From assembly GCF_003473295.1 (NCBI RefSeq), contig NZ_QRMP01000004.1, positions 3,308 through 67,307 of the forward strand: 64,000 bases of DNA, written 5' to 3'. Below the pieces are notes generated by a model. The model was not told the DNA's origin. It saw only the letters and a program-made list of their open reading frames with translations, and did no database searches. This DNA comes from Parabacteroides sp. AM08-6 (GTDB lineage Bacteria > Bacteroidota > Bacteroidia > Bacteroidales > Tannerellaceae). The translations under genes and the position numbers were made by a program. This document shows, piece after piece, positions 40,095-62,016 of the stretch (position 1 is its first letter; every line of letters starts with the position of its first letter).

Positions 40095-40254
40095 TCTACA
40101 TGAATCCTGTGTTGCTAAAAAAATATTATTTATTTGTATTCGAATATTTGTTTTAGTGAAAAACTTTTTGTTGTTTTGCTTTTATCTTTTGAAAATCAAT
40201 CAGAATGTGAAATATGGAAGTATTTGTCATGCTGATAATATTAATTTGTATAAT

Positions 40255-41397: not shown

Positions 41398-41464
41398 TAG
41401 TTGAATACAAATCTATCTATTAGTGATTTAAAACGAGTATATTAAACCATAAATAATCATCAAC

Positions 41465-42766: not shown

Positions 42767-43345
42767 ATGGAAAAAAGTATTAAAGGTACACGTACAGAGC
42801 AGAATCTGCTGAAATCATTTGCCGGAGAATCTCAGGCAAGAAGTCGTTATACATTCTTCGCAAGCAAAGCTAAGAAAGAAGGGTATGAACAAATTGCAGG
42901 TGTTTTTGCTGAAACAGCCGAACAGGAAAAAGAACATGCAGAACGTTTCTTTAAGTTTTTGGAAGGCGGCATGGTAGAAATCACAGCTGCTTATCCGGCC
43001 GGCGTTATCGGTACAACGATGGAAAACCTGGCTGCCGCTGCTGCCGGTGAAAATGAAGAGTGGGCTGAACTATATCCGGCTTTTGCTGATATAGCAGAAG
43101 AAGAAGGCTTCAAAATGATTGCCGTTGCTTTCAGAATGATTGCGAAAGTGGAAGCTGAACACGAAAAACGTTACCGTAAGCTGTTGGCTAACATGGAAGC
43201 CGGCCAGGTATTCGAAAAGCCTGAGGCTATTTGGTGGCAGTGTCGTAACTGCGGTTTTGTTATCGAAGGAAAGAAAGCTCCGCAGAAATGCCCGGCATGT
43301 GAACATCCGCAAGCTTATTTTGAACCGATGAAACAGAACTATTAA
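42767..43345 (+). CDS. rbr: Rubrerythrin
   Basis: A 192-residue peroxide-reducing di-iron protein of anaerobes. The N-terminal four-helix domain has the iron ligands in SFAGESQARSRYTFFA, ETAEQEKEHAERFF and KVEAEHEKRYRK. A C-terminal rubredoxin-like domain has two CxxC pairs (CRNCGF, CPACEH). It uses NADH-derived electrons to reduce H2O2. It has its own strong promoter and a strong terminator. Confidence 0.96.
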   Translation: MEKSIKGTRTEQNLLKSFAGESQARSRYTFFASKAKKEGYEQIAGVFAETAEQEKEHAERFFKFLEGGMVEITAAYPAGVIGTTMENLAAAAAGENEEWAELYPAFADIAEEEGFKMIAVAFRMIAKVEAEHEKRYRKLLANMEAGQVFEKPEAIWWQCRNCGFVIEGKKAPQKCPACEHPQAYFEPMKQNY

Positions 43346-43368: not shown

Positions 43369-43403
43369 ACGTTCCCTATCATTTTTTTGCTGATAGGGAA
43401 CGT
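43369..43403 (+). terminator. Rubrerythrin terminator
   Basis: A perfect 13-bp stem ACGTTCCCTATCA / TGATAGGGAACGT with a 9-base loop, then T/A-rich sequence. It separates rbr from the export operon that starts at 43466. Confidence 0.88.
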
Positions 43404-43465: not shown

Positions 43466-44359
43466 ATGGGCATATCTATAAAAAACCTCAATAAAGTGTA
43501 TCCGAATGGAAACCACGCGTTGAAAGACATCAATCTGGAAATACCGACAGGTATGTTCGGGCTGCTAGGTCCGAATGGTGCTGGAAAGTCAACTTTAATG
43601 CGTATTCTTGTTGCTTTGATGGAACCTTCTTCCGGAAAGGTGGATATCTGTGGGTACGATTTGATGAAACAGCGGAAAGAGATACGGGCTATACTGGGAT
43701 ATCTTCCGCAAGACTTCCGTTTCTTTGCTAAATATAAAACGTACGAGTTTTTGGACTACGCTGCGCGGCTTTCCGGAATAACCCGTAAGTCTGTTCGCAA
43801 ACAAGCGGTAGACGAAATGTTGGAGAATGTGGGACTGTTTGATGTACGCGACCGCTATGCCAATAAGTTATCCGGTGGTATGAAACGCCGTTTAGGTATT
43901 GCACAGGCACTTATTCATCATCCGAAAGTAATTATTGTGGACGAACCGACTACGGGATTGGACCCGGAAGAACGTATCCGTTTCCGTAACCTGCTCTCCG
44001 AAGCCAGCGAGAATGATGTGACGATTATCCTCTCCACCCATATCGTAGGCGATATTTCCAGTACTTGTAATTGTATGGCGTTGATGAATAAAGGAGAAGT
44101 CTCTTTTTACGGTGCTCCCCAGGATATGTTGAAACAGGCGGAAGGAAAAGTCTGGCGTATCCGGGTAAGTGGTGATGAACTGCATAAGGTTGATAAGCTC
44201 TACCCCGTTATTTCCACCATTCCTTTGGGTACCGGCTGGGAAGTACAGGTAGTAGCCGATGAGGTAAAAGGATATGATGCCGAAAGCTATCCTCCCAATC
44301 TGGAGCATGCTTACGTGTATTATATGGAGAATAAGTTGAACCGATGGACCAATGATTAA
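43466..44359 (+). CDS. ABC transporter ATP-binding protein, first gene of the RND/ABC operon
   Basis: A 297-residue ABC ATPase of the ABC-2 exporter type. It has GLLGPNGAGKST (Walker A), KLSGGMKRRLGIAQA (signature), VIIVDEPTTGLDPEERIRF (Walker B/D-loop) and the switch His in STHIVGDISS. The C-terminal 80 residues form an extra small domain. The closest relative in the window is the ATPase domain at the C-terminus of the giant RND fusion of the same operon (shared MFGLLGPNGAGKSTLMR, ERIRFRNLL). The next gene, 15 bases on, is its likely permease. A weak TATCTTTA -7-like box lies at 43422-43429. Confidence 0.92.
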   Translation: MGISIKNLNKVYPNGNHALKDINLEIPTGMFGLLGPNGAGKSTLMRILVALMEPSSGKVDICGYDLMKQRKEIRAILGYLPQDFRFFAKYKTYEFLDYAARLSGITRKSVRKQAVDEMLENVGLFDVRDRYANKLSGGMKRRLGIAQALIHHPKVIIVDEPTTGLDPEERIRFRNLLSEASENDVTIILSTHIVGDISSTCNCMALMNKGEVSFYGAPQDMLKQAEGKVWRIRVSGDELHKVDKLYPVISTIPLGTGWEVQVVADEVKGYDAESYPPNLEHAYVYYMENKLNRWTND

Positions 44360-44374
44360 TAAGTTGTGTGATTT

Positions 44375-47300
44375 ATGTCTTTTATAAACAATATACAATC
44401 TGTAGCAAAATACGAAAGTAAGATACTGGTTCGAAGCTGGTTCTTTAAGATATTTACGATACTGGCTCTCGGAGTATTGGGTTTTCTTAATTTCATCTTG
44501 CTGCTTGTCGATAATGGAGGTTCGTTCTGGATGGCGAAGGCTATCACCTCGAATATACCTTATATAAACCTGTTGGTGCTGAATACGGGACAGGCGGTGA
44601 TTGCGGTCTTTCTCTCCTCCGAGTTCCTGAAACGGGATAAGAAGTTGGATACATCCGAAGTATTCTACGTCCGTCCTCTCAGCAATGCCGAATATGTGAT
44701 AGGAAAGATATGGGGAAACCTGCGGGTATTCCTTATTCTGAACCTGATTGTGATGGCGCTGGCGCTGGTATTTAATTTTATAGGGGCGGGAGCTTCGGTG
44801 GATTGGTTGGCTTATCTACTCTATTTCCTGTTGATAAGTATCCCTACTCTGGTGTTCATCATCGGACTTTCCATCTTCCTGATGCTGGTATTTAAAAATC
44901 AGGCGCTGACTTTTATTATTTTGCTGGGGTATATCGGACTGACACTTTTCTATATACAGGACAAGTTTTACTACCTGTTCGATTATATGGCATACAGCTT
45001 GCCGTTGTTTAAATCGTCGATTGTAGGGTTTAGCAATTGGGAGGCACTTCTCAACCACAGAGGTATTTATTTCTTCCTCGGACTGGGATTTATCTTTTTC
45101 ACGATTTTCCTTTTCAGAAGGTTGCCTAACTCTTCCCGCAGCCATTATCCTTGGTTGTTTTTGTCTTTTTGTATGCTGTTGATTGGGGGAGCGGGTGGTT
45201 ACAATCATATACGTTCCATCCTCCGGGAAGCAGAAATGCGCGAACTTTATACAACAGTCAATAATAAATATGTCCATACCCCGAAGATGATTATCGACCA
45301 GTACGATATTCAGGTGGAGCAACATCCGCAAACATTCAGTTCGGAGGTAAAAATGAAAGGGGTGGCGTTGGAAACTTCGGCTGTTTTTACTTTCTCTCTG
45401 AACCCCGGTTTGCAAGTACAGGAAGTGAAGGAAGGAGAGAAATCTTTGCAGTTTAAGCGGGACAACCAGATTGTATTGGTGGATTTCGGTAGACAGATAA
45501 CAAAAGGGGATACAATTGCTTTATCCCTTTCTTATAGCGGACGGCTGAATGAAAATTTCTGCTATCTGGATATTCCGGCGGAAATCTTGCAACAGCAGTA
45601 CAAGAAAGATATGGTCAACATAGACAAGAAATATGTATTCCAGACAAAAGACTTTCTTCTCTTTACACCGGAAACATTCTGGTATCCGCGTCCCGGTACA
45701 AGCTACAGCGACGAGAGTCCGGACTGGCAGCAAACTTATTTCAGCCGGTTCAATCTGCAGGTAAAGCCTTTGCCGGGTCTTATACCTTTATCGCAGGGAG
45801 AAGGGAAAGAGGAGGAGGAAGGAACTTTTGTGTTCCGTCCGGACTATCCTTTCCAGTCTATTTCGTTGACTATCGGCAAATATAAGCAAAAGAGCCTGGA
45901 GGTAGACAGTACCTTATATAATATATGGTATATAGACGGGCACGATTATTTTACGGCACCATTCGATTCCATTCAGGACACTATTCCGTCGATGCTACGG
46001 GAGGTACGGGGTAATCTGGAACGAAATTATAAACTCAGCTATCCGTTCAACCGCTTCTCGGTAGTAGAAGTGCCGGCCCAGTTCTTCAGCTATGTCCGGG
46101 CGTGGTCGAATGCTCAGGAGATGGTACAGCCGGAGATGGTATTTTTCCCGGAGAAGGGATGTACGTTCTATCAGATGGATTTGGCAAAACAGAAAAAGAA
46201 CCAGTTCCAATGGGCGAAATGGAGCGGACGTGAAATATCGGAGCAAGAGGCGCAGATGCGTACTTTGTATAGTTTCCTGTATATTTTCCTTCAAACGGAA
46301 GGCAACTATAACTTCTCGTCCGGCGGACGAGGACAGTACAATATTTCTTCGCAGGCGAACCCTTATTTCCTGTTCCCGCAATTGTATAATTTCCGTTATA
46401 ACATCTTTTCACCTGAGTGGCCGATAACCAACCGAGTGATAGAACTTTATCTCCAGAGGAAATCGGACAACAACGGATGGGAAAGGGAGATAAACGGTAT
46501 CAGTAACAACGAAAAGTCGAATTTGCTGATGGAAAAACAATCTTTCAAGGATTTGCTGGCAGATGTCGAACATCGTGACTTGCTGGATAATATTATCAGC
46601 TTGAAAGCTTTTACTCTTTTTGCTCCGGCAGAAGTGAATGTTGGGGTCAATCTTTTCCGTGATTCCCTTTATTCGATATTGGAACAGAATACTTTCGGCA
46701 ATATCCAGTTCGAAAGCCTGTTGGATCGGTTGGGAGAGATTAGCGATACGGATATTAAATTGCAGATAAAGGATTGGGACAAACCTGTGCCGCTGCCGTT
46801 CTATACTATCGGTAAACCGGAAGTGACGAAGATAACAAATAAGGGACAGGAATCATATATCATGAAACTTTTAGTGGCGAATAATTCCGATTATGACGGA
46901 ATGCTTCAGGTAGATATCAATGTGAACAGAAGAGGCCCTGTTGCTGATCCGCGTACGAGCCGGAAAGTACCGTTGGATGCTCATCAAAGTAAGATGCTGG
47001 TGTCGGTTTGGGATGATCCCCCCTGGCAGGTATATATAAATACGTTGATATCCGGTAATCTGCCCAGTGCGCTGCGTCAATCTGTCAATGTCCGGGAAGA
47101 ACGCGAATGGACGTTGGTGTCGGATAGTGATTTTGTCGTTCCGATAACTTCCGGGATTGCAGAAGGTGAAGTGATTGTGGATAATGAAGACTCATTGTTG
47201 TTCTCTCTTTCCGAGCCGGCTATTGTAGGACTTTTACCTAAATGGCTCGATAAAGTGGAAGATACCTCCTTCAAATATGCAGGCGTTTCCCCGTGGCGTG

Positions 47301-47683
47301 CTCCTTTGCAATGGACGGCTACGACGAATGCAAATTATTATGGACAGTACATCCGGTCCGCTTATGTCATCAAGAGTGGTGACGGAAGTCAAACGGCAAC
47401 TTGGAAAGTTCCGGTTCCCTCTCCCGGACAGTACGAAGTGTATTATTATGTATCGAAGGATAATGAATTAAGATATAACAACCGGGCAGAAGGTGAATAT
47501 CATTTCAAGGTGAAGTATGATGAGGAGAATGAAGATGCCTATATCAATATGAAAAGGGCTAACGAAGGCTGGGAACAGTTGGGTGTTTATTACTTCAGTT
47601 CCGATACCATACATGTTACGTTGACTAACGAGTGCAAACTCCGCAGTGTGGCAGCCGATGCCGTAAGAATAGTAAAACGATAA
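44375..47683 (+). CDS. ABC-2 permease fused to large extracytoplasmic M1-like and golvesin-like domains
   Basis: A 1102-residue protein. Residues about 15-285 hold six or seven membrane segments of an ABC-2 type permease. The rest is probably extracytoplasmic. Residues about 300-760 resemble an M1-aminopeptidase scaffold (FTFSLNPGLQVQEV, DFLLFTPETFWYPR, PFNRFSVVEVPAQFFSYVRA), but I find no HExxH zinc motif, so it is probably inactive. Residues about 970-1102 look like a golvesin/xanthan-lyase C-terminal domain (ATWKVPVPSPGQYEVYYYVS, ending AADAVRIVKR). It lies between its ATPase and the TolC-like gene. Its large outer domain could contact the other envelope parts of the system; inference. Confidence 0.75.
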   Translation: MSFINNIQSVAKYESKILVRSWFFKIFTILALGVLGFLNFILLLVDNGGSFWMAKAITSNIPYINLLVLNTGQAVIAVFLSSEFLKRDKKLDTSEVFYVRPLSNAEYVIGKIWGNLRVFLILNLIVMALALVFNFIGAGASVDWLAYLLYFLLISIPTLVFIIGLSIFLMLVFKNQALTFIILLGYIGLTLFYIQDKFYYLFDYMAYSLPLFKSSIVGFSNWEALLNHRGIYFFLGLGFIFFTIFLFRRLPNSSRSHYPWLFLSFCMLLIGGAGGYNHIRSILREAEMRELYTTVNNKYVHTPKMIIDQYDIQVEQHPQTFSSEVKMKGVALETSAVFTFSLNPGLQVQEVKEGEKSLQFKRDNQIVLVDFGRQITKGDTIALSLSYSGRLNENFCYLDIPAEILQQQYKKDMVNIDKKYVFQTKDFLLFTPETFWYPRPGTSYSDESPDWQQTYFSRFNLQVKPLPGLIPLSQGEGKEEEEGTFVFRPDYPFQSISLTIGKYKQKSLEVDSTLYNIWYIDGHDYFTAPFDSIQDTIPSMLREVRGNLERNYKLSYPFNRFSVVEVPAQFFSYVRAWSNAQEMVQPEMVFFPEKGCTFYQMDLAKQKKNQFQWAKWSGREISEQEAQMRTLYSFLYIFLQTEGNYNFSSGGRGQYNISSQANPYFLFPQLYNFRYNIFSPEWPITNRVIELYLQRKSDNNGWEREINGISNNEKSNLLMEKQSFKDLLADVEHRDLLDNIISLKAFTLFAPAEVNVGVNLFRDSLYSILEQNTFGNIQFESLLDRLGEISDTDIKLQIKDWDKPVPLPFYTIGKPEVTKITNKGQESYIMKLLVANNSDYDGMLQVDINVNRRGPVADPRTSRKVPLDAHQSKMLVSVWDDPPWQVYINTLISGNLPSALRQSVNVREEREWTLVSDSDFVVPITSGIAEGEVIVDNEDSLLFSLSEPAIVGLLPKWLDKVEDTSFKYAGVSPWRAPLQWTATTNANYYGQYIRSAYVIKSGDGSQTATWKVPVPSPGQYEVYYYVSKDNELRYNNRAEGEYHFKVKYDEENEDAYINMKRANEGWEQLGVYYFSSDTIHVTLTNECKLRSVAADAVRIVKR

Positions 47684-47702
47684 TCATTTAATTAAAATAA
47701 CC

Positions 47703-49202
47703 ATGCAAAGAGAGTTATTATCCATAAAGAAAACTGTCCTGGCCGCTGTGGCTTGTCTGGGGCTTTCGGTCGTCCCTGCGTACGGACAGCTCTCGCTGAC
47801 TATAGAGAAGGCGATGGATATAGCGGAGGAGAATAGTCCGACTCTACGCCGCTCACACATGAATCTGGACCGTTATCAGGAGAATTTGATCGCGCAGCGG
47901 GCTTCGCTCAAATCGAAGTTCTCGCTCAACCTCAATCCGGTGGATTATAATAAGAACCGTAGGTTCGATAACCGTTTGTCGCAATGGTATACCAATGAGA
48001 CATTCAGTTCCAGCGGAACTTTCCAGGTAGACCAACCAATCTTGTGGACAGACGGTGTCCTTTCTTTGATAAACCGCTTTGGGTGGCAGGATAATAAATC
48101 GGATATCGACGGGGTTAAAAACAACAATAAAGCTTTTAGCAACGACTTGTATCTTCAATTGAGCCAGCCGGTTTTCACGTACAACAAACGGAAAATGGAA
48201 CTGAAGCAAATTGAATATGATTACGAAAATGCCAATATCAGTTATGCTTTGCAACGGCTGAACACGGAGAAGAATATCACCCAACAGTTCTATGCCGTTT
48301 ATATGGCTCAAAGCCAGCTGGCAATCCGCAAGGACGAATTGACCAATGCCCAGCAAAGTTATGATATCATCAAGAATAAGGTGGAGGCCGACTTGGCTGC
48401 CAGAGACGAATTGTTTCAGGCTGAAGTGAACTTGGCAACCGCCCGTTCGTCGGTGGAAGAACAATTGGTTTCCCTCGAAAATGCGAAAGACCAGCTCAAA
48501 CAAACTCTGGGAATGCCCTTGAGCGATGACATTATGGTCTTTGCCGAAATACATATCGAAGCAGTTGATGTGAATTTGGAAAAAGCGATACAACATGGTT
48601 TGGAGTCGCGACTCGAGCTTCGTCAACGGGAGATTGAGAGTAAGGAACTGGCGTTCGAGATGATTAGGACCAAGGCCCTGAATGAATTTAAGGGGGATGT
48701 TGCCCTCTCGTTCGGTTTGATAGGGGATAACCATCGTTTGGGAGATATCTATCAGACTCCGACACAGAACCCCCGTGTTGCTATCAGCTTTACCGTACCT
48801 ATCTTCGACTGGGGAGAAAAGAAAGCCCGTATTAAGGCACAGAAAGTAGCCCAGAAGATTAACGAACTGGATTTCCAGGAGGATAAAGTCAGTATCGAAT
48901 TGAATATCCGCCAGACTTGGCGTAACCTGGAGAATCTGCTTACACAAATCAAGATAGCTGAACAGAATGTGGAGAACGCCCAGCGTACCTACGACCTGAA
49001 CCTGACGCGCTATCGTGAGGGAGATATTACCGGTATGGATATGAACCAGTTCCAGACACAGCTCTCAAGCAAGAAGATTTCCTATACACAGACATTAATT
49101 AACTATAAGATAGAATTGTTGAACCTCAAAATACTTTCCCTCTACGACTTTGAGCGTGATGTAGCCATTGTTCCGATGGAAGATTTAGTAAATAAAAAAT
49201 AA
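47703..49202 (+). CDS. TolC-family outer-membrane efflux protein
   Basis: A 499-residue protein with a signal peptide ending near VVPAYGQ. Two OEP repeats of long alpha-helical hairpins are seen (ENSPTLRRSHMNLDRYQENL, KARIKAQKVAQKINELDFQE, NARRTYDLNLTRYREG-type segment NAQRTYDLNLTRYREGDITG). It supplies the outer-membrane duct. It lies 19 bases after the permease gene and 6 before the fusion-protein gene. The large minus-strand open frame over it has no coding character. Confidence 0.9.
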   Translation: MQRELLSIKKTVLAAVACLGLSVVPAYGQLSLTIEKAMDIAEENSPTLRRSHMNLDRYQENLIAQRASLKSKFSLNLNPVDYNKNRRFDNRLSQWYTNETFSSSGTFQVDQPILWTDGVLSLINRFGWQDNKSDIDGVKNNNKAFSNDLYLQLSQPVFTYNKRKMELKQIEYDYENANISYALQRLNTEKNITQQFYAVYMAQSQLAIRKDELTNAQQSYDIIKNKVEADLAARDELFQAEVNLATARSSVEEQLVSLENAKDQLKQTLGMPLSDDIMVFAEIHIEAVDVNLEKAIQHGLESRLELRQREIESKELAFEMIRTKALNEFKGDVALSFGLIGDNHRLGDIYQTPTQNPRVAISFTVPIFDWGEKKARIKAQKVAQKINELDFQEDKVSIELNIRQTWRNLENLLTQIKIAEQNVENAQRTYDLNLTRYREGDITGMDMNQFQTQLSSKKISYTQTLINYKIELLNLKILSLYDFERDVAIVPMEDLVNKK

Positions 49203-49208
49203 GCAGAC

Positions 49209-50270
49209 ATGAAATACTACAGTACAACTTTCGTATCCCTTTTCCTGCTTGCTCTGGTGGCTACTTCTTGTAACAATCAGCCGCAGAATACGCAGAATGA
49301 TATCGCTACTCCGGTATCTGTCGTGGAACTGAAGAAAGGTTCCATCAGTAAGTTAATTAACACTACCGGTACAGCCATGCCTACTTATGGCGTGGACCTG
49401 ACTTCCGGTATGGCTGGTCTTTACAAGCTCCAAACCAACCCGCGTACGGGAAAACCGTTTAAGCTGGGTGATAAAGTCAGTAAAGGACAGCTTATCGTCC
49501 GTCTGGAGGATAAAGAATATGAAAATGGTATCGCTCTCGATGCCAAGGAGCTAAGTTTCGAAATTGCCGAACAGGAGCAAAGCAAGCAGAAAGCTCTTTA
49601 TGAAAAAGGAGGAGTGACGCTCAGCGAAATGCGTAATACGGAGGTGAAGGTAACGAATGCCCGTTACGATGTAGAGAATGGAAAGCTCAATCTGGAGAAG
49701 ATGAACGTAACCGCTCCCTTCGACGGAGTAATCGTCGACCTGCCTCACTATACACCCGATGTACGGGTGGAACAGGGAAAGGCTATCGTCAGCCTGATGG
49801 ATTATTCCCGGATGTATATGGATATCAACCTGCCCGAAAGTGCTATCAGCTATGTGGATGCGGGACAGCCTGTTTACATTACTCACTATACACTGCCGGA
49901 AGATACGGTAAGTGGAAATATCAGCGAACTTTCTCCGGCCATCAGTACCGAGACTCGTACGTTTAAAGGTAAGATACAAATACAGAACGATGCCCTCAAG
50001 CTTCGTCCGGGTATGTTTGTCAAAGCCGATATCGTAGTGGATAAGGCCGAAAGCGCCATTATCATCCCGAAAGAGGTTATCCAAACCAACCGTCGCCGTA
50101 AGTATGTCTATATCGTAGAAAAGAATACGGCTATCCTGCGTGAAATCGTAACCGGTCTGGAAGACGAACGGAACGTCCAGGTAGTACAGGGGCTTAACGA
50201 AAACGATAATCTGGTAGTGAGAGGTTTCGAAACCCTGAAGGAAAACAGTAAGGTGAAAGTACAGAAGTAA
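49209..50270 (+). CDS. Efflux RND periplasmic adaptor (membrane-fusion protein)
   Basis: A 353-residue lipoprotein (lipobox in LVATSCNN). It has the biotinyl-lipoyl half-motifs around GDKVSKGQLIVRLEDKEY and MNVTAPFDGVIVDLPHYTPD, a short alpha hairpin between them, and the beta-barrel and membrane-proximal domains (RPGMFVKADIVVDKAESAII). It links the inner-membrane pump(s) to the TolC-like duct. It is 6 bases from the genes on both sides. Confidence 0.92.
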   Translation: MKYYSTTFVSLFLLALVATSCNNQPQNTQNDIATPVSVVELKKGSISKLINTTGTAMPTYGVDLTSGMAGLYKLQTNPRTGKPFKLGDKVSKGQLIVRLEDKEYENGIALDAKELSFEIAEQEQSKQKALYEKGGVTLSEMRNTEVKVTNARYDVENGKLNLEKMNVTAPFDGVIVDLPHYTPDVRVEQGKAIVSLMDYSRMYMDINLPESAISYVDAGQPVYITHYTLPEDTVSGNISELSPAISTETRTFKGKIQIQNDALKLRPGMFVKADIVVDKAESAIIIPKEVIQTNRRRKYVYIVEKNTAILREIVTGLEDERNVQVVQGLNENDNLVVRGFETLKENSKVKVQK

Positions 50271-50276
50271 GAGAAT

Positions 50277-53200
50277 ATGAAGAACATTATTAAATTCGCG
50301 GTAAGCAATCCCGTCACCATCTGCATGGTGGTACTGGCTATCCTGCTTCTGGGCAAGATATCCTACGACCAGCTGAGCGTAGACTTGCTTCCCGACCTCA
50401 ATAATCCTCGTCTCTTTATCGAGCTGAAGGCCGGCGAACGTCCGCCGGAGGAGATAGAGAAACAGTTCGTCAAGAACATAGAGTCTCTGGCTATCCGCCA
50501 AAGCGATGTTACGCAGGTTTCTTCCGTTATCAAGGCTGGTTCTGCCCGTATCACGGTAGAATATAGCTGGACGAAAGATATGGACGAAGCTTTCCTTGAC
50601 TTGCAAAAGGCTATGAGTCCGCTCTCTCAGAATAATGATATTACCGAGTTGAAGATTACGCAGCACGACCCCAACCAATCGCCGGTTGTACTGGTAGGTC
50701 TTTCACACATGAACATAACCGATATGGCCGAACTGCGGAAGGTGGCCGAAAGCTATATCCGCAACGAACTGATACGCCTTGAAGGGGTGGCGGACGTGAC
50801 CCTTTCGGGTGATGAAGTCAGTACCCTGACCATTCGTACCGACCCTTATAAGCTGGAAGCTTTCAAACTGACGATAAATGATATATCATCGAGAGTGGAA
50901 GCAAACAACCAAAGTATTTCCGGCGGTCGTGTCAGTGAACTGGGTCTACAATATCTGGTAAAAAGTTCCAGCCTGTTTTCTTCGGAACGCGACTTTGAGA
51001 ATTTGATAGTCGGCTATAAAGCCATTGAAGCTCAAAATACTTCAGCCTCGTCCGGTTCTACGGCTACAGGCACTGTTTCCGATGGAAATAAAGCACCCAT
51101 CTTCCTGAAAGAAGTTGCAAGTGTGCAGTTTGAGAACGCCCGTCCCGAGAACATTGTCCGTATCAACGGCGAACGCAGCATCGGGCTGTCCGTTTATAAA
51201 GAAATGCGTTTCAACACGGTGAAGGTAGTCGATGCCGTCACCCGCCAGTTGGGAATTATAGAACAAGCGCTTCCGGGTTATCGCTTCCAAGTGATTACCA
51301 ACCAGGGAACATTCATTAAGAACGCGATAGGAGAGGTGAAGGACAGTGCCGTACTCGGTATCATCCTGGCCGTTATCATCCTTTTCGTTTTCCTGCGGCG
51401 CTTCGGAACAACGTTGATTGTGAGTATGGCGATACCTATTTCTATCGTGGCTACTTTCAACTTGATGTTCTTCAATCATCTGACATTGAATATTATGACA
51501 CTGGGAGGGCTGGCCTTGGGAGCCGGTATGCTGGTGGATAATGCCATTGTGGTAATCGAGAGTATTTTCCGTAATCAGGAAAAAGGAATGTCCGTCAAGG
51601 AGGCGGCTATCACGGGAACTTCCGAAGTTGCCGGGGCTGTTATCGCCTCTACATTGACTACCGTTGTGGTATTCCTGCCTATCGTTTACCTGCATGGAGC
51701 TTCGGGCGAATTATTTAAGGACCAGGCATGGACGGTTACCTTCTCATTGGTTTCCTCTTTGTTTGTTGCCATATTGGTTATCCCGATGTTGTACGACCGG
51801 ATTGCCGGACGTAAGAAAGAAGCTCTCCAGGAGGTGAAATCTATCCAGATGAAAGGTTATAGCAAGCTGCTTCGCAAACTTCTGGAATACCGTTGGGGAG
51901 TCATTAGCGCAGCTGTCTTATTGATAGTGGTGGCCGGTCTGCTCACTCCTTTCATCGGAACTGAATTTATGCCGAAGGCGGAGAGTAAAACATTCTCGGC
52001 CGTTGTTCGCTTGCCGGAAGGTACACGTTTGGAACGTACCGCCTCGGCTATCGATGGGTTGGAAAGTCTGTTACGGACGATATCCGGCGATTCGCTTTGT
52101 ACGGTCTACAGCCATGTAGGTCCCGGAAGCGGTTCGGAAAACGATATATTCGAAGGTGAAAATACGGCTGTTATGAAAGTCATCCTTTCTCCTTCCTGTC
52201 CGATTTCTCCGGACGAAGTGATGGCCCGTTTCGTACAGGCTACCGAAGAAACCGAAGGGCTGGATATTACCCTGAAACAAGACGAAAATTCCCTGAGCAG
52301 CTTGTTGGGTAGCGAAGGTGCTCCCATCGTTGTCGAGGTGAAGGGAGAGGAACTGGATGAGATTGCCGTGCTGACCGAAGAGGTGAAAGGACGTATGATG
52401 ACTGTCAACGGACTTTACAACGTTCGTTCCTCCATTGAAGATGGTGCTCCCGAAGTCACGATTTCCCTCAACCGTACTGTAGCCGGTATTAATAATCTGA
52501 GTGTACAGACCGTTATCGACCAGCTCAAGCAACAATTGAGCGGACTCGAAACCGGTAAGATGGATTACCGCGGGGAGATGCGCGATATTCTGATAAAAGT
52601 ACCCGATATCACCCTGAAAGACCTTGGTATGCTGGTTATCAAGAACGGCGACCAGGAATTCCGTCTGCAGGAAGTGGCCGATATTATCCCCTCACAAGCG
52701 CCGAAAGAAATCTTCCGCCGCGGGCAAAACCGTATCAGTAAAGTTATGGCGGATATGGACGATAACCAGTCGCTGGACAAAATGGCGGCACAGATACGTT
52801 CCGCCGTCTCGGATATAGACCTGCCGAACAACTATTCCATTACCGTCACCGGTGAAGAAGAGAAGCGTCAGGAGTCGATGAACAGCCTGCTGTTCGCACT
52901 GGCTCTTTCGGTTATCCTGGTTTATATGGTGCTGGCTTCGCAGTTTGAATCACTGCTGCATCCTTTCACTATCCTGCTGACGATACCGCTGGCGGTGGTA
53001 GGGGCTGTCCTCCTGTTCTTCCTTACCGGGACAACCATCAATATGATGGGAGTAATCGGTATTGTGATGTTGGTCGGTATTGCGGTGAACAACTCGATTA
53101 TCCTGGTAGACCGTATTAACCAGTTGAAAACCGGTATGCCGTTGACCGATGCCATTGTGGAAGCCGGCCAGCAACGTATCCGTCCTATCTTGATGACAAC

Positions 53201-53384
53201 GCTGACAACTATCCTTGCCCTTCTCCCCATGACTATTAGTTTCGGTGAAGGCGCGTCGCTTCGTTCGCCGATGGCAATTGCCGTGATAGGCGGGCTGTTG
53301 ACCTCCACGTTAATGTCGCTTATGGTTATTCCATGCGTCTATTATGTATTGGAAAGGATAAAAACGAGGAAGAAAAGAATATGA
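50277..53384 (+). CDS. Efflux RND transporter permease
   Basis: A 1035-residue proton-driven pump with the standard plan of 12 membrane segments and two large periplasmic loops. The TM4 signature is GAGMLVDNAIVVIESIF, and TM10 has VGIAVNNSIILVDRI, i.e. the D-N / N-N variant rather than the DD/K triad of AcrB; this variant is common outside Enterobacteria. Its last four bases overlap the start of the RND-ABC fusion gene (ATGA), so the two pump subunits are translationally coupled and may form mixed trimers, as in MdtBC; inference. Confidence 0.93.
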   Translation: MKNIIKFAVSNPVTICMVVLAILLLGKISYDQLSVDLLPDLNNPRLFIELKAGERPPEEIEKQFVKNIESLAIRQSDVTQVSSVIKAGSARITVEYSWTKDMDEAFLDLQKAMSPLSQNNDITELKITQHDPNQSPVVLVGLSHMNITDMAELRKVAESYIRNELIRLEGVADVTLSGDEVSTLTIRTDPYKLEAFKLTINDISSRVEANNQSISGGRVSELGLQYLVKSSSLFSSERDFENLIVGYKAIEAQNTSASSGSTATGTVSDGNKAPIFLKEVASVQFENARPENIVRINGERSIGLSVYKEMRFNTVKVVDAVTRQLGIIEQALPGYRFQVITNQGTFIKNAIGEVKDSAVLGIILAVIILFVFLRRFGTTLIVSMAIPISIVATFNLMFFNHLTLNIMTLGGLALGAGMLVDNAIVVIESIFRNQEKGMSVKEAAITGTSEVAGAVIASTLTTVVVFLPIVYLHGASGELFKDQAWTVTFSLVSSLFVAILVIPMLYDRIAGRKKEALQEVKSIQMKGYSKLLRKLLEYRWGVISAAVLLIVVAGLLTPFIGTEFMPKAESKTFSAVVRLPEGTRLERTASAIDGLESLLRTISGDSLCTVYSHVGPGSGSENDIFEGENTAVMKVILSPSCPISPDEVMARFVQATEETEGLDITLKQDENSLSSLLGSEGAPIVVEVKGEELDEIAVLTEEVKGRMMTVNGLYNVRSSIEDGAPEVTISLNRTVAGINNLSVQTVIDQLKQQLSGLETGKMDYRGEMRDILIKVPDITLKDLGMLVIKNGDQEFRLQEVADIIPSQAPKEIFRRGQNRISKVMADMDDNQSLDKMAAQIRSAVSDIDLPNNYSITVTGEEEKRQESMNSLLFALALSVILVYMVLASQFESLLHPFTILLTIPLAVVGAVLLFFLTGTTINMMGVIGIVMLVGIAVNNSIILVDRINQLKTGMPLTDAIVEAGQQRIRPILMTTLTTILALLPMTISFGEGASLRSPMAIAVIGGLLTSTLMSLMVIPCVYYVLERIKTRKKRI

Positions 53385-56300
53385 ACTTTTTGCTACATAG
53401 AAAGATTGCGATTTGCATGCTGTTTGCAGCCCTTACCGGGTTGGGATACGTCTCCTACAAACAGTTACCGGTGGAACTGTTACCTAACGCAGAGCTACCG
53501 ATGCTCTTCGTACAGGTAAGTTCCACGCAGGACATGGACCCGGCTTATGTGGAGACGGAAGTCGTTATCCCGCTCGAAGGTGCTATCAGTACCATCGGTG
53601 GGGTAGAGAAGATACAATCCACTATCGACAGCCGTCAGTCCAATATACAGATTAACTTCAAGAGTACTGTCAACTTCAAGATAACCGCCCTGAAACTACA
53701 GGAGAAGATTAACGAGACGGCCCAGAGCCTGCCCGATAATTTTAGGGTGTCGGTACAGAAAGTCGATGTCTCCGCACTGGGTGGCGGTTTCATGTCGCTG
53801 CAAGTACGCGGCTCCGGAGGAACCGACCGTGTACGTCAGTTGGTGGAGAAGGAGATACGTGCCGACTTGGAGAATATCGATGGAATAGCTTCCGTCAACG
53901 TGTACGGCGGACGGGAAAAAGCCATCGAGGTACGTCTCAATACGGATGCTTGCGCTGCGCTGAACCTGACTCCTTCGAAGATAAGCAGCCTGCTTAACCA
54001 GAATACACAGGAGAAAGCCTTTGTGGGATATGCCGTCGAACCTGACGGACAACATTTCGTGCATGTCAATTCCTCCTATACCCAAGTCTCCGACCTGGAA
54101 AATATAGTAGTTGCTCCCGGTCCCATCCTGCTGAAAGATGTGGCCACTGTGTTCTTCGACCGTAAGGAAGAAACAAGCTATAGTCGTGTGAATGGCAAAG
54201 ACGCCGTTTCGGTTGCCTTGCAAGCTGATTCACAATCCAACCTGATAGACTTGTCGCATCGTACGCTTGCCGCTGTCGACCGTTTGAACGAACGTCTCGA
54301 ACCGCTCGACCTGGCCATTGTAGTGGAGAATAACCAAGCGGAAACGATGGAAGATAATATCGACCAGATAATCAATCTCGCCTTGGTAGGCGGTCTGTTG
54401 GCTATCCTGATTCTCTGGCTTTTCCTGAAGAACTTCCGGTTGGTATTTTTCATCGCCCTGTCTATTCCGATTTCGGTCTATACAGCCTTCAATTTCTTCT
54501 ACGCTTCCGGTATCTCTATCAATAGTCTGACACTGGTAGGAATGGCATTGGCGGTGGGGATGTTGCTGGACAACAGTGTCGTGGTACTCGAAAATATCTA
54601 CCGCCTCTCTGCCTCCGGCTGTACTCCCGAACGCTCCGTTACGCAAGGGACGAAAGAAGTCTGGCGTTCTATCCTGGCTGCTACGCTGACCACGATAACC
54701 GTCTTCCTTCCTTTTGTCTTTTCCGACAACTTCCTAGTTAAGTTGATGGGACATCATATCGGCGTTTCTATCATTTCCACCCTTTCCGTTTCTTTGCTGG
54801 TCGCTTTGCTGTTTATTCCGATGGCAACCTATACTATCCTGCGGAAACGGACACCCGACGAGATGGATGTTCCCCTTCCGCTTCAGTCAAAAGAACCGGA
54901 ACAGAAGGAAACAGGCCGTTGGGGAAAATGGAAAGCCTATTTGCGCGCCCATCTTGGAAAAGGAAAGGGAGACAGTGTATTCTACCAGAAAATAGGCGTT
55001 ACACAGCGCCCCGTGCAGGTATATCTTGTCTTCCTTAAGACTTGTATGCGTAACCCGGGTGTGACTATCTTCGGTGCTATCATTACGCTCTTCCTGACCC
55101 TGATACTTGCTCTGACGCTGAATATCCAGGAGATGAAAGATGTGGAGTCCGACCGTTTCAGTATCTACGTCACCATGCAAACCGGTAGTACGTTAGAGAA
55201 TACCGACCAGACGGTGAAAGTGATAGAAGAACGCCTCGCCGATTTCCCGGAGAAAGAAGAACTGATAAGCCGTATCCGGGAGGCAGATGCCGAACTGACA
55301 CTTGTCCTGAAAGAAGGTTATAATAAGATAGGCCATCGCAGTATTTCCGATATCAAGGCGGATGTGCAAGGCAAGCTCCGCGATATTAACGGAGCTGAGA
55401 TTTCTCTTTCCGATGCTTCCGGTGGAGGCCAGGGAGGGGCTATGGGGAATATGATGGCCGGCATGGGCTCTTTTATGCGTATGCTGGGTATCGGCGATAG
55501 CCGGGAACGAATTGTGATAAAAGGTTCCGATGTCGACCTGATGCAGCGTGTGGCGGAAGATTTCCGTTATTACCTGGACGAACAGGAGTTTATCCGGAAT
55601 ACATGGGTTTCCTACAATCGCCGTCAACCTGAGATATATCTGGGCTTCGACCCGATATTACTTACCTCCTTCGACATCTCACGTGGGAATATATCTGCCG
55701 GTCTTGCTTCGCTTAATCCGGAACTCTCGTCCGGTACTACTTTTAAGGTAGGGGAGGATACTTACGATATTGTAATCCGGAACGAGGAGCTGGAAGACGA
55801 AATGGAAGAGGATTTCACGTTGACTCCCGATACAGCATCTCTTCCTGCCGATAGTACTCAGGTCGGTCAACAACCTCCTCATGCCGAAGGTCATGTGGGA
55901 GATAAAGGAACTCCTCCCGCCGAAGGCCAGAAAGCAGAAGCGAAAACTCCTGCCGCAGAACATAAAGCCGGAGGAAGTACTGCTTCTGCCGAAAGACGTA
56001 GGCCCGCTGGTGGGGCTGCTCCCGCAGGAGGTCGCAGACCGGAAGGGGGTGCTGTTCCTGCAGGAAATCTTATGCCCGGAGCAACCGCTACTCCCGCTGT
56101 CCGTGCAGGTGGTGCAGGCAGAGGTAGAGCCGGCGGTGGAGGTGGTGAAGGCCGCAGGGGAAACAGAAGCGAGAATAGACGCAGACCTGACAGAAATCCT
56201 GCCGATAGCAGCAAGGTAAACAAAGATATGCCGGTTGCCGATAGCAGCAAAATGGCTGCGAACTTCTCCGGTACAGATAGTATGCAGGTGGATAGCGTCC

Positions 56301-58792
56301 AAATGGATAGTATTCGGATAGCCAGAGAACAGGCTGTTCTCGATAGTATCCAAGAGATAAAGGACAAGAGGATTAAAGACAGTTTGCTCCTTGCCCAGCT
56401 GGCAAAGGAAAACAAAGATAAGAGTGTCGACGACCTTCGTGCCGTCCAGATACCTAACGCAGCCGGCGGATTGCACCGGTTGGACGATATCGCTTCCATC
56501 AATTATGGTCGCGGTCGTGCCCGTATCACCCGTGTGAACCAAGATAAACAGGTGGAAGTATTCTATTCTTTCTCCAGGGATGTAGAGTCCTCGAAAGAGC
56601 TGTTGGAAGGCTACCGGGCCGATATAGATGCGTTGGTGGCTTCCTACAACCTGCCGGCAGGTGTCGCTGTGGAAGTGTTCCATGAGGAAGACCAGTTTGC
56701 AGACTTCAAGTTCCTGATACTAGCTGCATTCATCCTCATCTTCATGATATTGGCATCGGTGTTCGAGTCGCTTACTACACCGTTTGTCCTGCTCTTTTCC
56801 ATTCCGTTGGCCGCTATCGGTTCGCTGCTTGCTCTGTTGTTGACGGGCAACAGCCTGATGAATGCGAACACCTTGATGGGCTTCCTGATATTGTTGGGAG
56901 TCGTGGTGAACAACGGGATTATCCTGATAGACTATGCCAATATTCTCCGGAAACGAGGATACCGGCGCAACCGTGCGTTGATAACGGCCGGTCTGTCCCG
57001 TATCCGTCCTATCCTGATTACTTCCATAACCACCATCGTGGCCATGCTCCCGATGGCAATGGGTAATTCGGAATATGCGGGAGCTATCGGAGCTCCGTTC
57101 GCCATCACGGTTATCGGAGGTTTGTCATTCTCGGCTTTGCTGACGTTGATATTGATACCGACAGTCTGCATGGGTCTGGAAAATACGTTGAAATGGTATC
57201 GGGGTCTCTCTCCCAAAATATGGTTGTTCCATCTGGTACTCTTCCTCTTCGGAGCGTTGTGTATCTGGCTTTATGCCGATGGTTTGCTGTGGCAGTCCAT
57301 CTATTTGGTTGCGTTGACGGCTGCTATTCCGGGCATGACCTATTTTGCCCAAAACAGCTTGCGTCGTGCCAGCTCTAAAGTCATCGACCCGGATGCCGAA
57401 ATTCATATCTCCGTCAGCAACCTGGTGAAGATATACGACTGGCCGGGACGGATATCCCGTCAGTGGAACAGCGGCCTGCTGATACGTCGCCGGTTGGGAT
57501 TGGGAGGCGAATATCATTCATTGAAAGATTTTGTCGGTATCAGTTGGCAGTTTGCCCTGTGGGGCTTTGGTGTCTATTTTACCTGGTTCTTTGTCAGTAA
57601 CCGGATGTGGATATTCCTGCTCTCTTTTGCCATGTATGCCGCTACGCTTGCTCTTTGGAGGAAAATACGCGAATACCTGTATTACCGCTTTGAGAAGAGC
57701 CGTATGGTGCGCAATGTCAACCGGGTTATCTTCTGGAGTATTCCGCCGCTTATCCTCTTCGGATTGTTCCGGAAGATGGATAATCCGAACCTGGTAGGGG
57801 TAGTAGCCTTGTTATGGGCTTTCTGCATCGCGGTTTATATATCGTCGGGTTATCTGTATGAGAAAGAAATCAATATAGAACGTATCAAAGGACGTTTCGC
57901 CGGATTGCGCCGCTCTTGGTTCCGGATGGTGAAGAGTATCCCGCTGATTGGCAAACGTCGTCGTCCGTTCAAGGCTTTGCGTGGCGTATCGTTCGAAATA
58001 CGTACTGGAATGTTCGGACTGTTGGGACCGAACGGAGCCGGTAAGTCTACCTTGATGCGTGTCATCTGCGGTATTCTCGAACAGAGTTACGGTAGTATCT
58101 GGATTAACGGTTTGGATACGCGCATCTACCGCGAGGAACTGCAAAGCCTGATAGGTTTCCTTCCGCAGGAATTCGGTACGTACGAGAATATGTCGTCGTG
58201 GGAATTTCTCGATTACCAAGCTATCCTGAAAGGCATTACCGACGCTACTCTGCGTAAGGAACGCCTCGAATATGTCCTGAAAGCCGTCCACATGTACGAA
58301 CGCAAGGACGATAAGATAGGTTCTTTCTCCGGTGGTATGAAACAACGTATCGGTATTGCCCTGATATTGCTTCACCTGCCGCGTATCCTCGTGGTAGACG
58401 AACCTACGGCAGGTCTGGACCCGCGCGAACGTATCCGCTTCCGTAACTTGCTGGTCGAACTGAGTAAAGACCGTATCGTGATATTCTCCACGCATATCAT
58501 CGAAGATATATCCAGCTCCTGTAACCAGGTGGTGGTTATCAACAAGGGTAGCCTGAAATACTTCGGCGACCCGGTAGATATGGTAGATATGGCTACCGGT
58601 AAGGTCTGGACATTCAGCATCGACCGTGCCGACTTTGAAGAGAAGCTCGACAAATCGTTGATTGTAAATCACATGCAAAACGGCGACCAGATACAAATAC
58701 GTTATCTGTCTACCGATTGTCCGTATGAAGGAGCTGTGCTGGTAGAACCGAATTTGGAGGATGCATATTTATGTTTATTGAAAGGATTGTAA
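53381..58792 (+). CDS. Giant fusion: RND permease, membrane segment and ABC ATPase
   Basis: A 1803-residue protein starting at the ATG at 53381; the frame is open 48 bases upstream inside the previous gene but MNFLLHRKIAI is the natural RND start. Residues 1-800 and 1015-1270 form a complete RND pump (TM4 GMLLDNSVVVLENIYR near 393-408, TM10 VVNNGIILIDYAN near 1175-1187). Between them, residues about 800-1015 are a low-complexity insert rich in P, A, G, R then D/S/K. Residues 1281-1500 contain about five or six extra membrane segments. Residues 1530-1803 are an ABC ATPase: Walker A GPNGAGKST 1549-1557, FSGGMKQR 1649-1656, VVDEPTAGLD 1671-1680, switch His 1705. IHISVSNLVKIYDW (1341-1354) looks like the ATPase's own first strand and A-loop, displaced before the membrane segments. 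Confidence 0.88.
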   Translation: MNFLLHRKIAICMLFAALTGLGYVSYKQLPVELLPNAELPMLFVQVSSTQDMDPAYVETEVVIPLEGAISTIGGVEKIQSTIDSRQSNIQINFKSTVNFKITALKLQEKINETAQSLPDNFRVSVQKVDVSALGGGFMSLQVRGSGGTDRVRQLVEKEIRADLENIDGIASVNVYGGREKAIEVRLNTDACAALNLTPSKISSLLNQNTQEKAFVGYAVEPDGQHFVHVNSSYTQVSDLENIVVAPGPILLKDVATVFFDRKEETSYSRVNGKDAVSVALQADSQSNLIDLSHRTLAAVDRLNERLEPLDLAIVVENNQAETMEDNIDQIINLALVGGLLAILILWLFLKNFRLVFFIALSIPISVYTAFNFFYASGISINSLTLVGMALAVGMLLDNSVVVLENIYRLSASGCTPERSVTQGTKEVWRSILAATLTTITVFLPFVFSDNFLVKLMGHHIGVSIISTLSVSLLVALLFIPMATYTILRKRTPDEMDVPLPLQSKEPEQKETGRWGKWKAYLRAHLGKGKGDSVFYQKIGVTQRPVQVYLVFLKTCMRNPGVTIFGAIITLFLTLILALTLNIQEMKDVESDRFSIYVTMQTGSTLENTDQTVKVIEERLADFPEKEELISRIREADAELTLVLKEGYNKIGHRSISDIKADVQGKLRDINGAEISLSDASGGGQGGAMGNMMAGMGSFMRMLGIGDSRERIVIKGSDVDLMQRVAEDFRYYLDEQEFIRNTWVSYNRRQPEIYLGFDPILLTSFDISRGNISAGLASLNPELSSGTTFKVGEDTYDIVIRNEELEDEMEEDFTLTPDTASLPADSTQVGQQPPHAEGHVGDKGTPPAEGQKAEAKTPAAEHKAGGSTASAERRRPAGGAAPAGGRRPEGGAVPAGNLMPGATATPAVRAGGAGRGRAGGGGGEGRRGNRSENRRRPDRNPADSSKVNKDMPVADSSKMAANFSGTDSMQVDSVQMDSIRIAREQAVLDSIQEIKDKRIKDSLLLAQLAKENKDKSVDDLRAVQIPNAAGGLHRLDDIASINYGRGRARITRVNQDKQVEVFYSFSRDVESSKELLEGYRADIDALVASYNLPAGVAVEVFHEEDQFADFKFLILAAFILIFMILASVFESLTTPFVLLFSIPLAAIGSLLALLLTGNSLMNANTLMGFLILLGVVVNNGIILIDYANILRKRGYRRNRALITAGLSRIRPILITSITTIVAMLPMAMGNSEYAGAIGAPFAITVIGGLSFSALLTLILIPTVCMGLENTLKWYRGLSPKIWLFHLVLFLFGALCIWLYADGLLWQSIYLVALTAAIPGMTYFAQNSLRRASSKVIDPDAEIHISVSNLVKIYDWPGRISRQWNSGLLIRRRLGLGGEYHSLKDFVGISWQFALWGFGVYFTWFFVSNRMWIFLLSFAMYAATLALWRKIREYLYYRFEKSRMVRNVNRVIFWSIPPLILFGLFRKMDNPNLVGVVALLWAFCIAVYISSGYLYEKEINIERIKGRFAGLRRSWFRMVKSIPLIGKRRRPFKALRGVSFEIRTGMFGLLGPNGAGKSTLMRVICGILEQSYGSIWINGLDTRIYREELQSLIGFLPQEFGTYENMSSWEFLDYQAILKGITDATLRKERLEYVLKAVHMYERKDDKIGSFSGGMKQRIGIALILLHLPRILVVDEPTAGLDPRERIRFRNLLVELSKDRIVIFSTHIIEDISSSCNQVVVINKGSLKYFGDPVDMVDMATGKVWTFSIDRADFEEKLDKSLIVNHMQNGDQIQIRYLSTDCPYEGAVLVEPNLEDAYLCLLKGL

Positions 58793-58813
58793 TCCGGTAA
58801 AACGAGAACGATT

Positions 58814-59527
58814 ATGACACTGAAACAATTCGTAGGGCTTTTGCCCCGACTGGTTAAATATAACCTGAAAATAATTTTTGCCGGGAAGTTCATTTGGTTC
58901 TTCCTGGCTGCTTTCGGCTTTTTTGCCTACTTTATGTTCCAGAACGCCTGGAACCGGGCGGAGATAAACGAAGGGCTTATTTATAATATTTTGCTCTTCC
59001 CTTGTATATTGTTGGTGTTTTATCCTGCCGTGTTCGGTATCCAGAACGATGAGGATAGCCGGATACTCGAAATCCTTTTCGGTATTCCCGACTATAAATA
59101 TAAGGTATGGGGTGTCCGTTTGTTGATGATTTATGTGGCGATATTCTTCATTCTCATTCTCTTTTCGTATATCGCTACGCTTTTGCTTTATCCTGTCAAC
59201 CCTCTGGAGATGGCATCGCAGCTAATGTTTCCGATATTCTTTTTCGGCAATTTGGCCTTTATGCTTTCCACCATTACCCGGAGTGGCAACGGGACGGCCG
59301 TGCTGGTAATCATTATCGGCATTGCCCTGCTTTTCTTCAGCAACACGGGTTCTGTCGAACGTTCTTTCTGGAACATCGTCCTGAACCCTTTCCGTATCCC
59401 CAACAACCTCTTGCCTGTCATCTGGGAAAGTACCATCCTGAAAAGCCGTATTTTTCTCCTCAGCGCCAGCATCATCTGGATGATGATAGGATTGCTCAAT
59501 TTGCAAAAGAGGGAGAAGTTTGTCTGA
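58814..59527 (+). CDS. ABC-2 type permease, last gene of the RND/ABC operon
   Basis: A 237-residue protein with six membrane segments, beginning with an amphipathic leader (LVKYNLKIIFAGKFIWFFLA), then LLFPCILLVFYPAVFGIQND and RLLMIYVAIFFILILFSYIA. This resembles small ABC-2 permeases. Its ATPase is presumably the C-terminal domain of the preceding fusion protein, 21 bases upstream. A strong terminator follows, ending the seven-gene operon. Confidence 0.82.
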   Translation: MTLKQFVGLLPRLVKYNLKIIFAGKFIWFFLAAFGFFAYFMFQNAWNRAEINEGLIYNILLFPCILLVFYPAVFGIQNDEDSRILEILFGIPDYKYKVWGVRLLMIYVAIFFILILFSYIATLLLYPVNPLEMASQLMFPIFFFGNLAFMLSTITRSGNGTAVLVIIIGIALLFFSNTGSVERSFWNIVLNPFRIPNNLLPVIWESTILKSRIFLLSASIIWMMIGLLNLQKREKFV

Positions 59528-59543
59528 TAAAAGGAATTATAAT

Positions 59544-59587
59544 AGCCCTTCCTGTCGTTCATGCTAAGTGCAACGACAGGGAGGGCT
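59544..59587 (+). terminator. Operon terminator
   Basis: AGCCCTTCCTGTCGTT pairs with AACGACAGGGAGGGCT (one G-T pair), loop of 12 bases, then TT-rich sequence. It closes the RND/ABC operon. The rest of the gap to 59790 holds only the left 37-bp repeat. Confidence 0.85.
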
Positions 59588-61473: not shown

Positions 61474-61491
61474 AAACTTATAATGTGGAAA

Positions 61492-61499
61492 CAAAGATA
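61492..61499 (-). promoter_or_regulatory. -7 element of the AlbA_2 gene
   Basis: TATCTTTG on the minus strand, 18 bases before the ATG at 61473; implies a very short leader. Confidence 0.5.
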
Positions 61500-61689: not shown

Positions 61690-62016
61690 ATGCCATTGCT
61701 TTATAACTTCGACATCGATACGCCTCATGAGTTATTGGCGGTTCTTGCCGGTAATTTACAAAAGCGCAGGCTTGAAAAAGGGCTTTCGCGCGAAGCACTC
61801 ACGGAACTTAGCGGAGTACCTACCCCTACCATTGCCAAATTCGAGCAAAAACATACCATCTCCTTGGCATCCTATGTGGCACTGGCAAAAGCATTGGGCT
61901 ATTCCAAAGCCATAAAAGGATTGCTTTCCGAGCCAATCTACCATACGATGGAAGAATTGGAGATGATTAACAAAAACAGAAACAGAAAGAAGGGACGTAA
62001 TGAAATCAGTAGATAA
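61690..62016 (+). CDS. hipB: HipB-like XRE-family antitoxin / repressor
   Basis: A 108-residue DNA-binding protein with an XRE helix-turn-helix: LAGNLQKRRLEKGLSREALT, then LSGVPTPTIAKFEQKHTISL (about residues 20-60). The N-terminal 15 residues and the basic C-terminal tail (NKNRNRKKGRNEISR) flank it. It overlaps hipA by 17 bases. In the known system HipB binds operators in its own promoter and neutralises HipA. Confidence 0.85.
   Translation: MPLLYNFDIDTPHELLAVLAGNLQKRRLEKGLSREALTELSGVPTPTIAKFEQKHTISLASYVALAKALGYSKAIKGLLSEPIYHTMEELEMINKNRNRKKGRNEISR

Follow-up and report, generated by a model that had tools for sequence, protein, structure and literature searches.

Seven genes for RND and ABC components lie on one strand

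We analysed a 64,000-nucleotide stretch of the genome of Parabacteroides sp. AM08-6 (contig NZ_QRMP01000004.1, positions 3,308 to 67,307; hereafter the window), in which seven genes, A to G, encode parts of both a resistance-nodulation-division (RND) pump and an ATP-binding cassette (ABC) transporter. The genes, and two hairpins that flank them, are as follows (aa, amino acids).

43466..44359, + strand: gene A, ABC ATPase, 297 aa; Pfam ABC_tran, catalytic motifs intact
44375..47683, + strand: gene B, ABC-2-like permease with a giant periplasmic region, 1102 aa; Golvesin_C, with ABC-2 below the curated cut-off
47703..49202, + strand: gene C, TolC-like outer-membrane duct, 499 aa; OEP, 5e-45
49209..50270, + strand: gene D, periplasmic adaptor (membrane-fusion protein), 353 aa; RND_mfp, 185.5 bits against a cut-off of 94.9
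50277..53384, + strand: gene E, RND pump, 1035 aa; full ACR_tran, 5e-208; relay residues Asp421 and Asn422, Asn938, Arg969
53381..58792, + strand: gene F, RND-ABC fusion, 1803 aa; ACR_tran and ABC_tran in one frame
58814..59527, + strand: gene G, membrane protein, 237 aa; ABC-2-like through its relatives
43369..43403, + strand: 13-pair hairpin, probable upstream terminator, between rubrerythrin and gene A; -19.7 kcal/mol, z -7.3
59544..59587, + strand: 19-pair hairpin, probable operon terminator, after G; -31.9 kcal/mol, z -7.3

A first-pass annotation, made from the DNA letters, had described these genes as an operon that combines RND and ABC motors, with one shared adaptor and one duct. All seven reading frames were located where it had placed them, between 43466 and 59527, with intergenic gaps of 15 (A-B), 19 (B-C), 6 (C-D), 6 (D-E), -4 (E-F) and 21 (F-G) bases, and the operon has one adaptor and one duct. 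Searches of Pfam and NCBIfam agreed with the identities given for A to F: ABC_tran for A, Golvesin_C and a sub-cut-off ABC-2 match for B, OEP for C, RND_mfp for D, ACR_tran for E, and ACR_tran together with ABC_tran for F, whose RND and ABC parts are thus covalently joined in a single frame. The single strong terminator that had been described corresponds to the 19-pair hairpin, and the second hairpin bounds the operon upstream; neither was picked up by a simple scan of the window. Gaps of no more than 21 bases leave no space for a further hairpin between the genes. A to G probably form one transcript. The start codon of F (ATG at 53381) overlaps the stop of E by 4 bases, and use of the first ATG, at 53333, would give a protein of 1819 aa.

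The seven-gene module is conserved and inherited as a set

The first-pass annotation had proposed a gene-neighbourhood analysis, in which ABC and RND genes that usually occur apart would speak against a combined system. We assembled 77 F-bearing loci, comprising 18 of 20 from a first set and 59 of 60 further stretches; L019 and L020 (ABC part only) and L077 (a 644-aa frame, E 1e-4) were left out as weak matches. Two pairs of loci (L003 and L076, L006 and L120) are the same places, so the number of independent loci is slightly below 77. Genes A to G are complete, in order and on one strand in 59 of the 77 loci, with median gaps of 9-30 bases when measured from the first possible start codon. 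Of the remaining 18, 14 stop at contig ends, three (L002, L007 and L009) are frame-broken contigs of metagenome-assembled genomes (MAGs), and one (L127, in genome G800) has C-D-E-F-G with upstream room but without A and B. G800 is the only genome in which the locus is split, and it retains both A and B, side by side on another contig. The seven-gene order is kept where identity to the window proteins drops to ~60% for A, 30-35% for B and 50% for E, and the order is therefore old rather than the product of chance.

Because these loci had been picked through F, we made the converse test on samples of the phylum Bacteroidota, asking whether B or G occurs without F. The F-specific linker was found in 7 of 395 phylum genomes, six of them with a frame of more than 1500 aa. 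G was found in 6 of 390 genomes, and B matches in 21 of 390, of which six were full length and 15 partial (eight to the golvesin domain, six inside the ABC-2 front and one to residues 283-390). The same six genomes (G001, G070, G122, G164, G351 and G353) carry long F, G and full-length B, and no full-length B or G was found in the other genomes among the 390. The neighbourhood analysis and this converse test both favour the earlier view of the genes as one genetic module. The linker occurred in 52 of 393 genomes of an order sample and in 39 of 123 genomes of a family sample. The module is thus patchy in distribution, yet inherited as a set.

These data bear on a simple alternative, namely that a tripartite RND pump and an ABC exporter are two ordinary systems, co-inherited behind one promoter, and that the fusion merely balances their amounts. 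In its favour, all the parts can be assigned to known families or are similar to them, and one genome parts A-B from C-D-E-F-G. However, the split in G800 does not fall at the border between ABC and RND genes, since F and G remain with the RND set, and B and G were not seen at full length without the fusion in the phylum sample. We consider this alternative improbable.

Searches with the C-terminal part of F gave 4408 protein matches among 7995 scored candidates, and the 120 that were listed all have RND and ABC domains. The fusion occurs in Parabacteroides, in Bacteroides faecalis and in MAGs of Flammeovirgaceae and Cytophagales. The nearest named proteins among the matches listed are from Parabacteroides, with 83-85% identity over the C-terminal part. 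Carriers include gut Parabacteroides as well as Maribellus and Mariniphaga, whose names are suggestive of sea or sediment. Two further arrangements were observed: genome G004 apparently has two module copies (contigs C25 and C196), and in L101 a 735-aa B-like frame (27% identity) lies just upstream of a complete module.

Membrane helices interrupt the ATPase domain of F

Four parts of F follow its RND portion.

57212..57373, + strand: F residues 1278-1331, a pair of additional membrane helices that follows the RND part (predicted structure model)
57407..57436, + strand: F residues 1343-1352, first strand of the ATPase domain and NLVKIY motif (alignment, model)
57437..57964, + strand: F residues 1353-1528, membrane insertion inside the ATPase domain (four helices in the model)
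57968..58789, + strand: F residues 1530-1803, remainder of the ATPase domain, with Walker A at 1549 (ABC_tran, alignments)

Sequence and model agree that ~175 residues with membrane helices split the F ATPase domain between its first strand and Walker A, and structural alignments of the domain begin before the insertion. The domain is therefore not continuous, unlike what is expected of an ABC-2 exporter. The distance from the NLVKIY motif to Walker A is 130-246 residues (median 196) in 68 of 72 aligned F proteins, the spacing motif having missed four (L074, L086, L107 and L127), whereas the corresponding distance in A is 22 in 60 of 65 sequences, those that parsed. The F proteins of L114 and L115 have a shorter insertion, with 130 residues from motif to Walker A as against ~196, and represent a natural intermediate.

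None of the 72 F proteins has lost Walker A, SGGM or DEPT, and the same is true of all 65 A proteins, that of the window included. Both ATPases also keep the switch histidine, which in F lies in STH in 68 of the 72 and in SSH in the other four. We built a tree in which 24 ATPases of A and 25 of F were set against 19 other ABC ATPases, 17 of them taken from six of the genomes analysed here and two from other loci. A and F ATPases form one clade each, on a joint branch separated from the other ABC ATPases with support of 100/99. If the root lies among the others, A and F are sisters, as would result from a duplication whose two products have stayed together and as expected for the two ATPases of a heterodimeric ABC transporter.

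The first-pass annotation had also raised lipid transfer. The solved ATPases nearest to A and F belong to ABCA-type lipid exporters (219 bits for A with ABCA3, 164 for F with ABCA1), and we considered a lipid cargo on these grounds. Two control ABC ATPases from the genomes analysed here match ABCA as well, with higher scores of 228 bits each; the likeness is generic and says nothing about cargo. Lipid transfer is thus left without specific support.

E and F are paralogous RND subunits with a reduced proton relay

Two parts of F lie before the ATPase domain.

53381..57199, + strand: F residues 1-1273, RND pump part (ACR_tran 3e-150 in two stretches; MdtB alignment)
55838..56434, + strand: F residues ~820-1018, insertion rich in Pro, Ala and Gly and then in Asp and Ser, in the second periplasmic half (length comparison, alignment)

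The other F proteins listed have 1556-1605 aa and are ~200-250 residues shorter than that of the window. The best solved relative by sequence is MdtB for both E and F. In a quick tree of 15 E, 15 F and 14 other RND pumps, E and F each form one clade, and the two are paired against the other pumps with a value of 91 in the Shimodaira-Hasegawa-like approximate likelihood-ratio test (SH-aLRT). The operon therefore has two paralogous RND subunits, as in an MdtBC-type heterotrimer.

We positioned the proton relay of both proteins, in AcrB numbering, through their alignments with MdtB. Every one of the 75 E and 72 F proteins keeps the equivalents of Asp407 and Arg971. Position 408 is Asn in all 75 E proteins and in 64 of 72 F proteins (Thr, Cys or Ser in the remainder). 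At position 940, all 72 F proteins have Asn, as do 73 of the 75 E proteins, the other two having Ser, so that the D407-D408-K940 triad is complete in neither subunit. A codon-level search for the Asn-Asn motif in six genomes gave 12 occurrences, 11 of them at E or F genes and one at another RND gene (G004, contig C20); the pattern is blind to other residues at these positions, and it failed to detect E in G003 or either of the two E genes of G004.

Our first idea, suggested by the loss of Asp408 and Lys940, was that ATP has replaced protons in driving the pump. Since Asp407 and Arg971 are kept, proton use remains feasible. Single substitutions abolish transport by AcrB, according to PMC8277102, and MexB charge mutants lose transport, according to a review (PMC5719797). 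The same review describes D408 as less conserved, with loss of the lysine likely to go with loss of an acid, and indicates that the site may stay protonatable. On this basis, it is likely that E and F have kept a proton drive.

We also considered a conventional HAE-1/MdtABC-type multidrug efflux pump that is accompanied by accessory genes. It would account for MdtB as the nearest solved relative of both proteins and for an adaptor that exceeds the RND_mfp cut-off. It would sit poorly with a relay that differs from that of MdtB, with ABC parts that are conserved together with the RND genes, and with the failure of E and F to reach any RND permease cut-off among the 25 NCBIfam families shown for each. 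We regard such a pump as very improbable.

B and G are candidate membrane halves of the ABC unit

Three parts were distinguished in B.

44375..45205, + strand: B residues 1-277, membrane domain, ABC-2-like (~7 helices by inspection of the model)
45254..47092, + strand: B residues 294-906, M1-aminopeptidase fold without HExxH (fold likeness to ERAP1 and IRAP)
47309..47674, + strand: B residues 979-1100, golvesin C-terminal domain (PF25275, 2.5e-15; xanthan lyase 6f2p, 1.6e-9)

The front of the window B matches ABC2_membrane_2 at 0.0037, under the cut-off, and 29 of 33 N-terminal pieces of B match this family at E <= 1 (best 3e-8). The second part shares its fold with M1 aminopeptidases such as ERAP1 and IRAP and differs from them in lacking the HExxH zinc motif and in being attached to an ABC-2-like membrane domain. 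We found HExxH in none of 119 database homologues and in one of 66 locus homologues; in that protein (L081) it lies at residue 885, off the catalytic place in the alignment.

G had been called a second ABC permease. The window G has no Pfam match at 0.01, and it is labelled an ABC permease because relatives match ABC2_membrane_3: eight of 35 aligned G proteins do so at E <= 1 (best 8e-8), that of the window not among them. GldF was absent from the matches of the 35 proteins at the same threshold. As a separate candidate, we considered G as a homologue of the B membrane domain and rejected it, the alignment being collinear and not significant (hhalign probability 0.4%, E 0.16).

ABC proteins can serve as mechanical or regulatory units, of which FtsEX is an example. 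By analogy, A, B, G and the F ATPase domain might transport nothing, but sense through the peptidase-like domain of B and open or energise the RND trimer by ATP hydrolysis. The reduced relay in both RND subunits, the helices inside the F ATPase domain (a possible mechanical link) and a periplasmic domain with a binding fold and no catalytic motif all fit an ATP gate. On the other hand, the retention of two distinct membrane partners is in keeping with a translocation path, and Asp407 and Arg971 are invariant in the sequences examined, at a site that, as argued in PMC5719797, can stay protonatable without the lysine and the second acid. We judge a gate of this kind unlikely, although it is the alternative to which we give the most weight.

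A possible exporter with two motors

We compared the seven proteins with known systems. MdtABC-TolC is similar in having two different RND subunits, one adaptor and a TolC-type duct. It differs in that the MdtB chain ends after its RND part, without an ABC domain, and MdtC is not known to have such a domain either. The relay of MdtB is D-D-K, against D-N-N in E and F. MdtBC is a known heterotrimer (PMC8277102), and its two components are treated in PMC7015380. In tripartite exporters like MacAB-TolC, as described in the former source, an ABC motor, an adaptor and a duct span the envelope. The present set differs by its RND subunits, and no Pfam match to a MacB/FtsX-type permease domain was found in the seven proteins. 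Of the ABC-2 systems of Bacteroidota, we compared GldAFG in particular. Both A and the F ATPase domain have GldA among their best NCBIfam matches, at 190.8 and 176.9 bits, short of the cut-off of 402.6. The Gld layout, a small permease and a membrane protein with a large periplasmic part, is similar to that found here, whereas the Gld system is not known to have an RND partner; GldAFG differs further in that none of 35 G proteins matches GldF at E <= 1.

On balance, we lean towards a reading in which the products of all seven genes assemble into a single trans-envelope exporter that has two motors, an RND trimer tethered to an ABC-2 heterodimer, using ATP and proton energy in series. E and the RND part of F would form a mixed trimer in the manner of MdtB and MdtC, which with adaptor D and duct C would make a tripartite conduit. 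A and the F ATPase domain would be the ATPase pair of an ABC-2 type transporter, with the front of B as one membrane half and the whole of G as the other, and this unit would be tethered to the trimer because one of its ATPase domains belongs to F. ATP hydrolysis would move the cargo, an amphipathic molecule that is peptide-like or lipid-linked, across the inner membrane or out of it; the peptidase-like domain of B, lacking its zinc motif, may receive or bind the cargo in the periplasm; and the RND trimer, driven by protons through its reduced relay, would hand it via D and C to the outside. The pairings within the heteromers, their co-assembly, the direction of transport, the cargo and the action of both motors on one cargo are each inferred. 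The fold of B hints at a peptide-like cargo, and a lipid is possible. More tentatively, and with somewhat less than even confidence, we suggest that the ATP-driven heterodimeric ABC unit directly powers or gates the proton-driven RND trimer, so that two superfamilies would act as one enzyme on one cargo. In that case, one ATPase domain would be covalently part of an RND subunit and, as modelled, threaded through the membrane in mid-domain.

Several observations weigh against this two-motor exporter. The loss of Asp408 and Lys940 could leave the proton drive weak or absent. The model of the C-terminal part of F has a mean predicted local distance difference test score (pLDDT) of 79.7 and a predicted template modelling score (pTM) of 0.57, and the blocks around the first strand average 62-81 in pLDDT. 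The SH-aLRT value for the grouping of E with F is not starred. Most G proteins (27 of 35) lack an ABC2_membrane_3 match, even with the threshold at E <= 1, and the profile comparison described above detects no homology between G and the front of B. Gaps are wide at a few loci, reaching 947 bases between C and D, 927 between E and F and 878 between F and G, and the split locus of G800 shows that a single transcript is dispensable.

Genes around the operon

In the window, a rubrerythrin gene (42767-43345) lies directly upstream of the operon, with the strong 13-pair hairpin in between. Rubrerythrin is upstream in 11 loci (two pairs of which are the same place), and the named ones are all Parabacteroides. 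Further upstream, 40081-42607 holds two similar tandem genes, the second a 6-bladed beta-propeller (DUF5128, Pfam) and the first alike by eye. Downstream, 59791-61494 encodes a Schlafen/AlbA_2 protein on the opposite strand, and at 61690-63118 a helix-turn-helix gene overlaps a HipA-like gene, resembling a HipBA-type toxin-antitoxin pair.

At other loci, we observed related sigma-70 genes, like those for extracytoplasmic function (ECF) sigma factors, near the operon (upstream in L088 and L091, downstream in L098), and a GntR-type regulator upstream in L085, with relatives in L089 and L099. Six loci (L013, L015, L016, L111, L112 and L116) have related small secreted proteins upstream of A, encoded on the opposite strand in L013 and L111; by eye they are like the Spy/CpxP stress chaperones, and the one that was tested has no Pfam match. 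We looked around the F-bearing loci for a neighbour common to different locus groups, as a clue to the cargo, and found none.

Implications

The fusion protein is already catalogued, but only under automatic names, among them 'efflux RND transporter permease subunit' and 'multidrug efflux pump subunit AcrB/ABC-type multidrug transport system ATPase subunit', and 'xanthan lyase' is another automatic name at these loci. The components resemble known families; what sets the system apart is their combination and the interrupted ATPase domain. We found no description of an RND-ABC fusion among the papers listed from the open PMC literature, judged by titles and the starts of abstracts, a weak negative given that subscription papers and preprints were outside its scope. 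To our knowledge, the placing of membrane helices between the first strand and Walker A of an ABC ATPase would be a new topology for a widely studied motor domain.

Tripartite exporters are classed by their motor, as RND, ABC or major facilitator superfamily (MFS) systems. A machine that fuses two of these classes, if our reading is true, would break this motor-based sorting. It would also be a natural experiment on combining proton and ATP energy in one envelope-spanning pump, and a new way of pushing substances out across two membranes.

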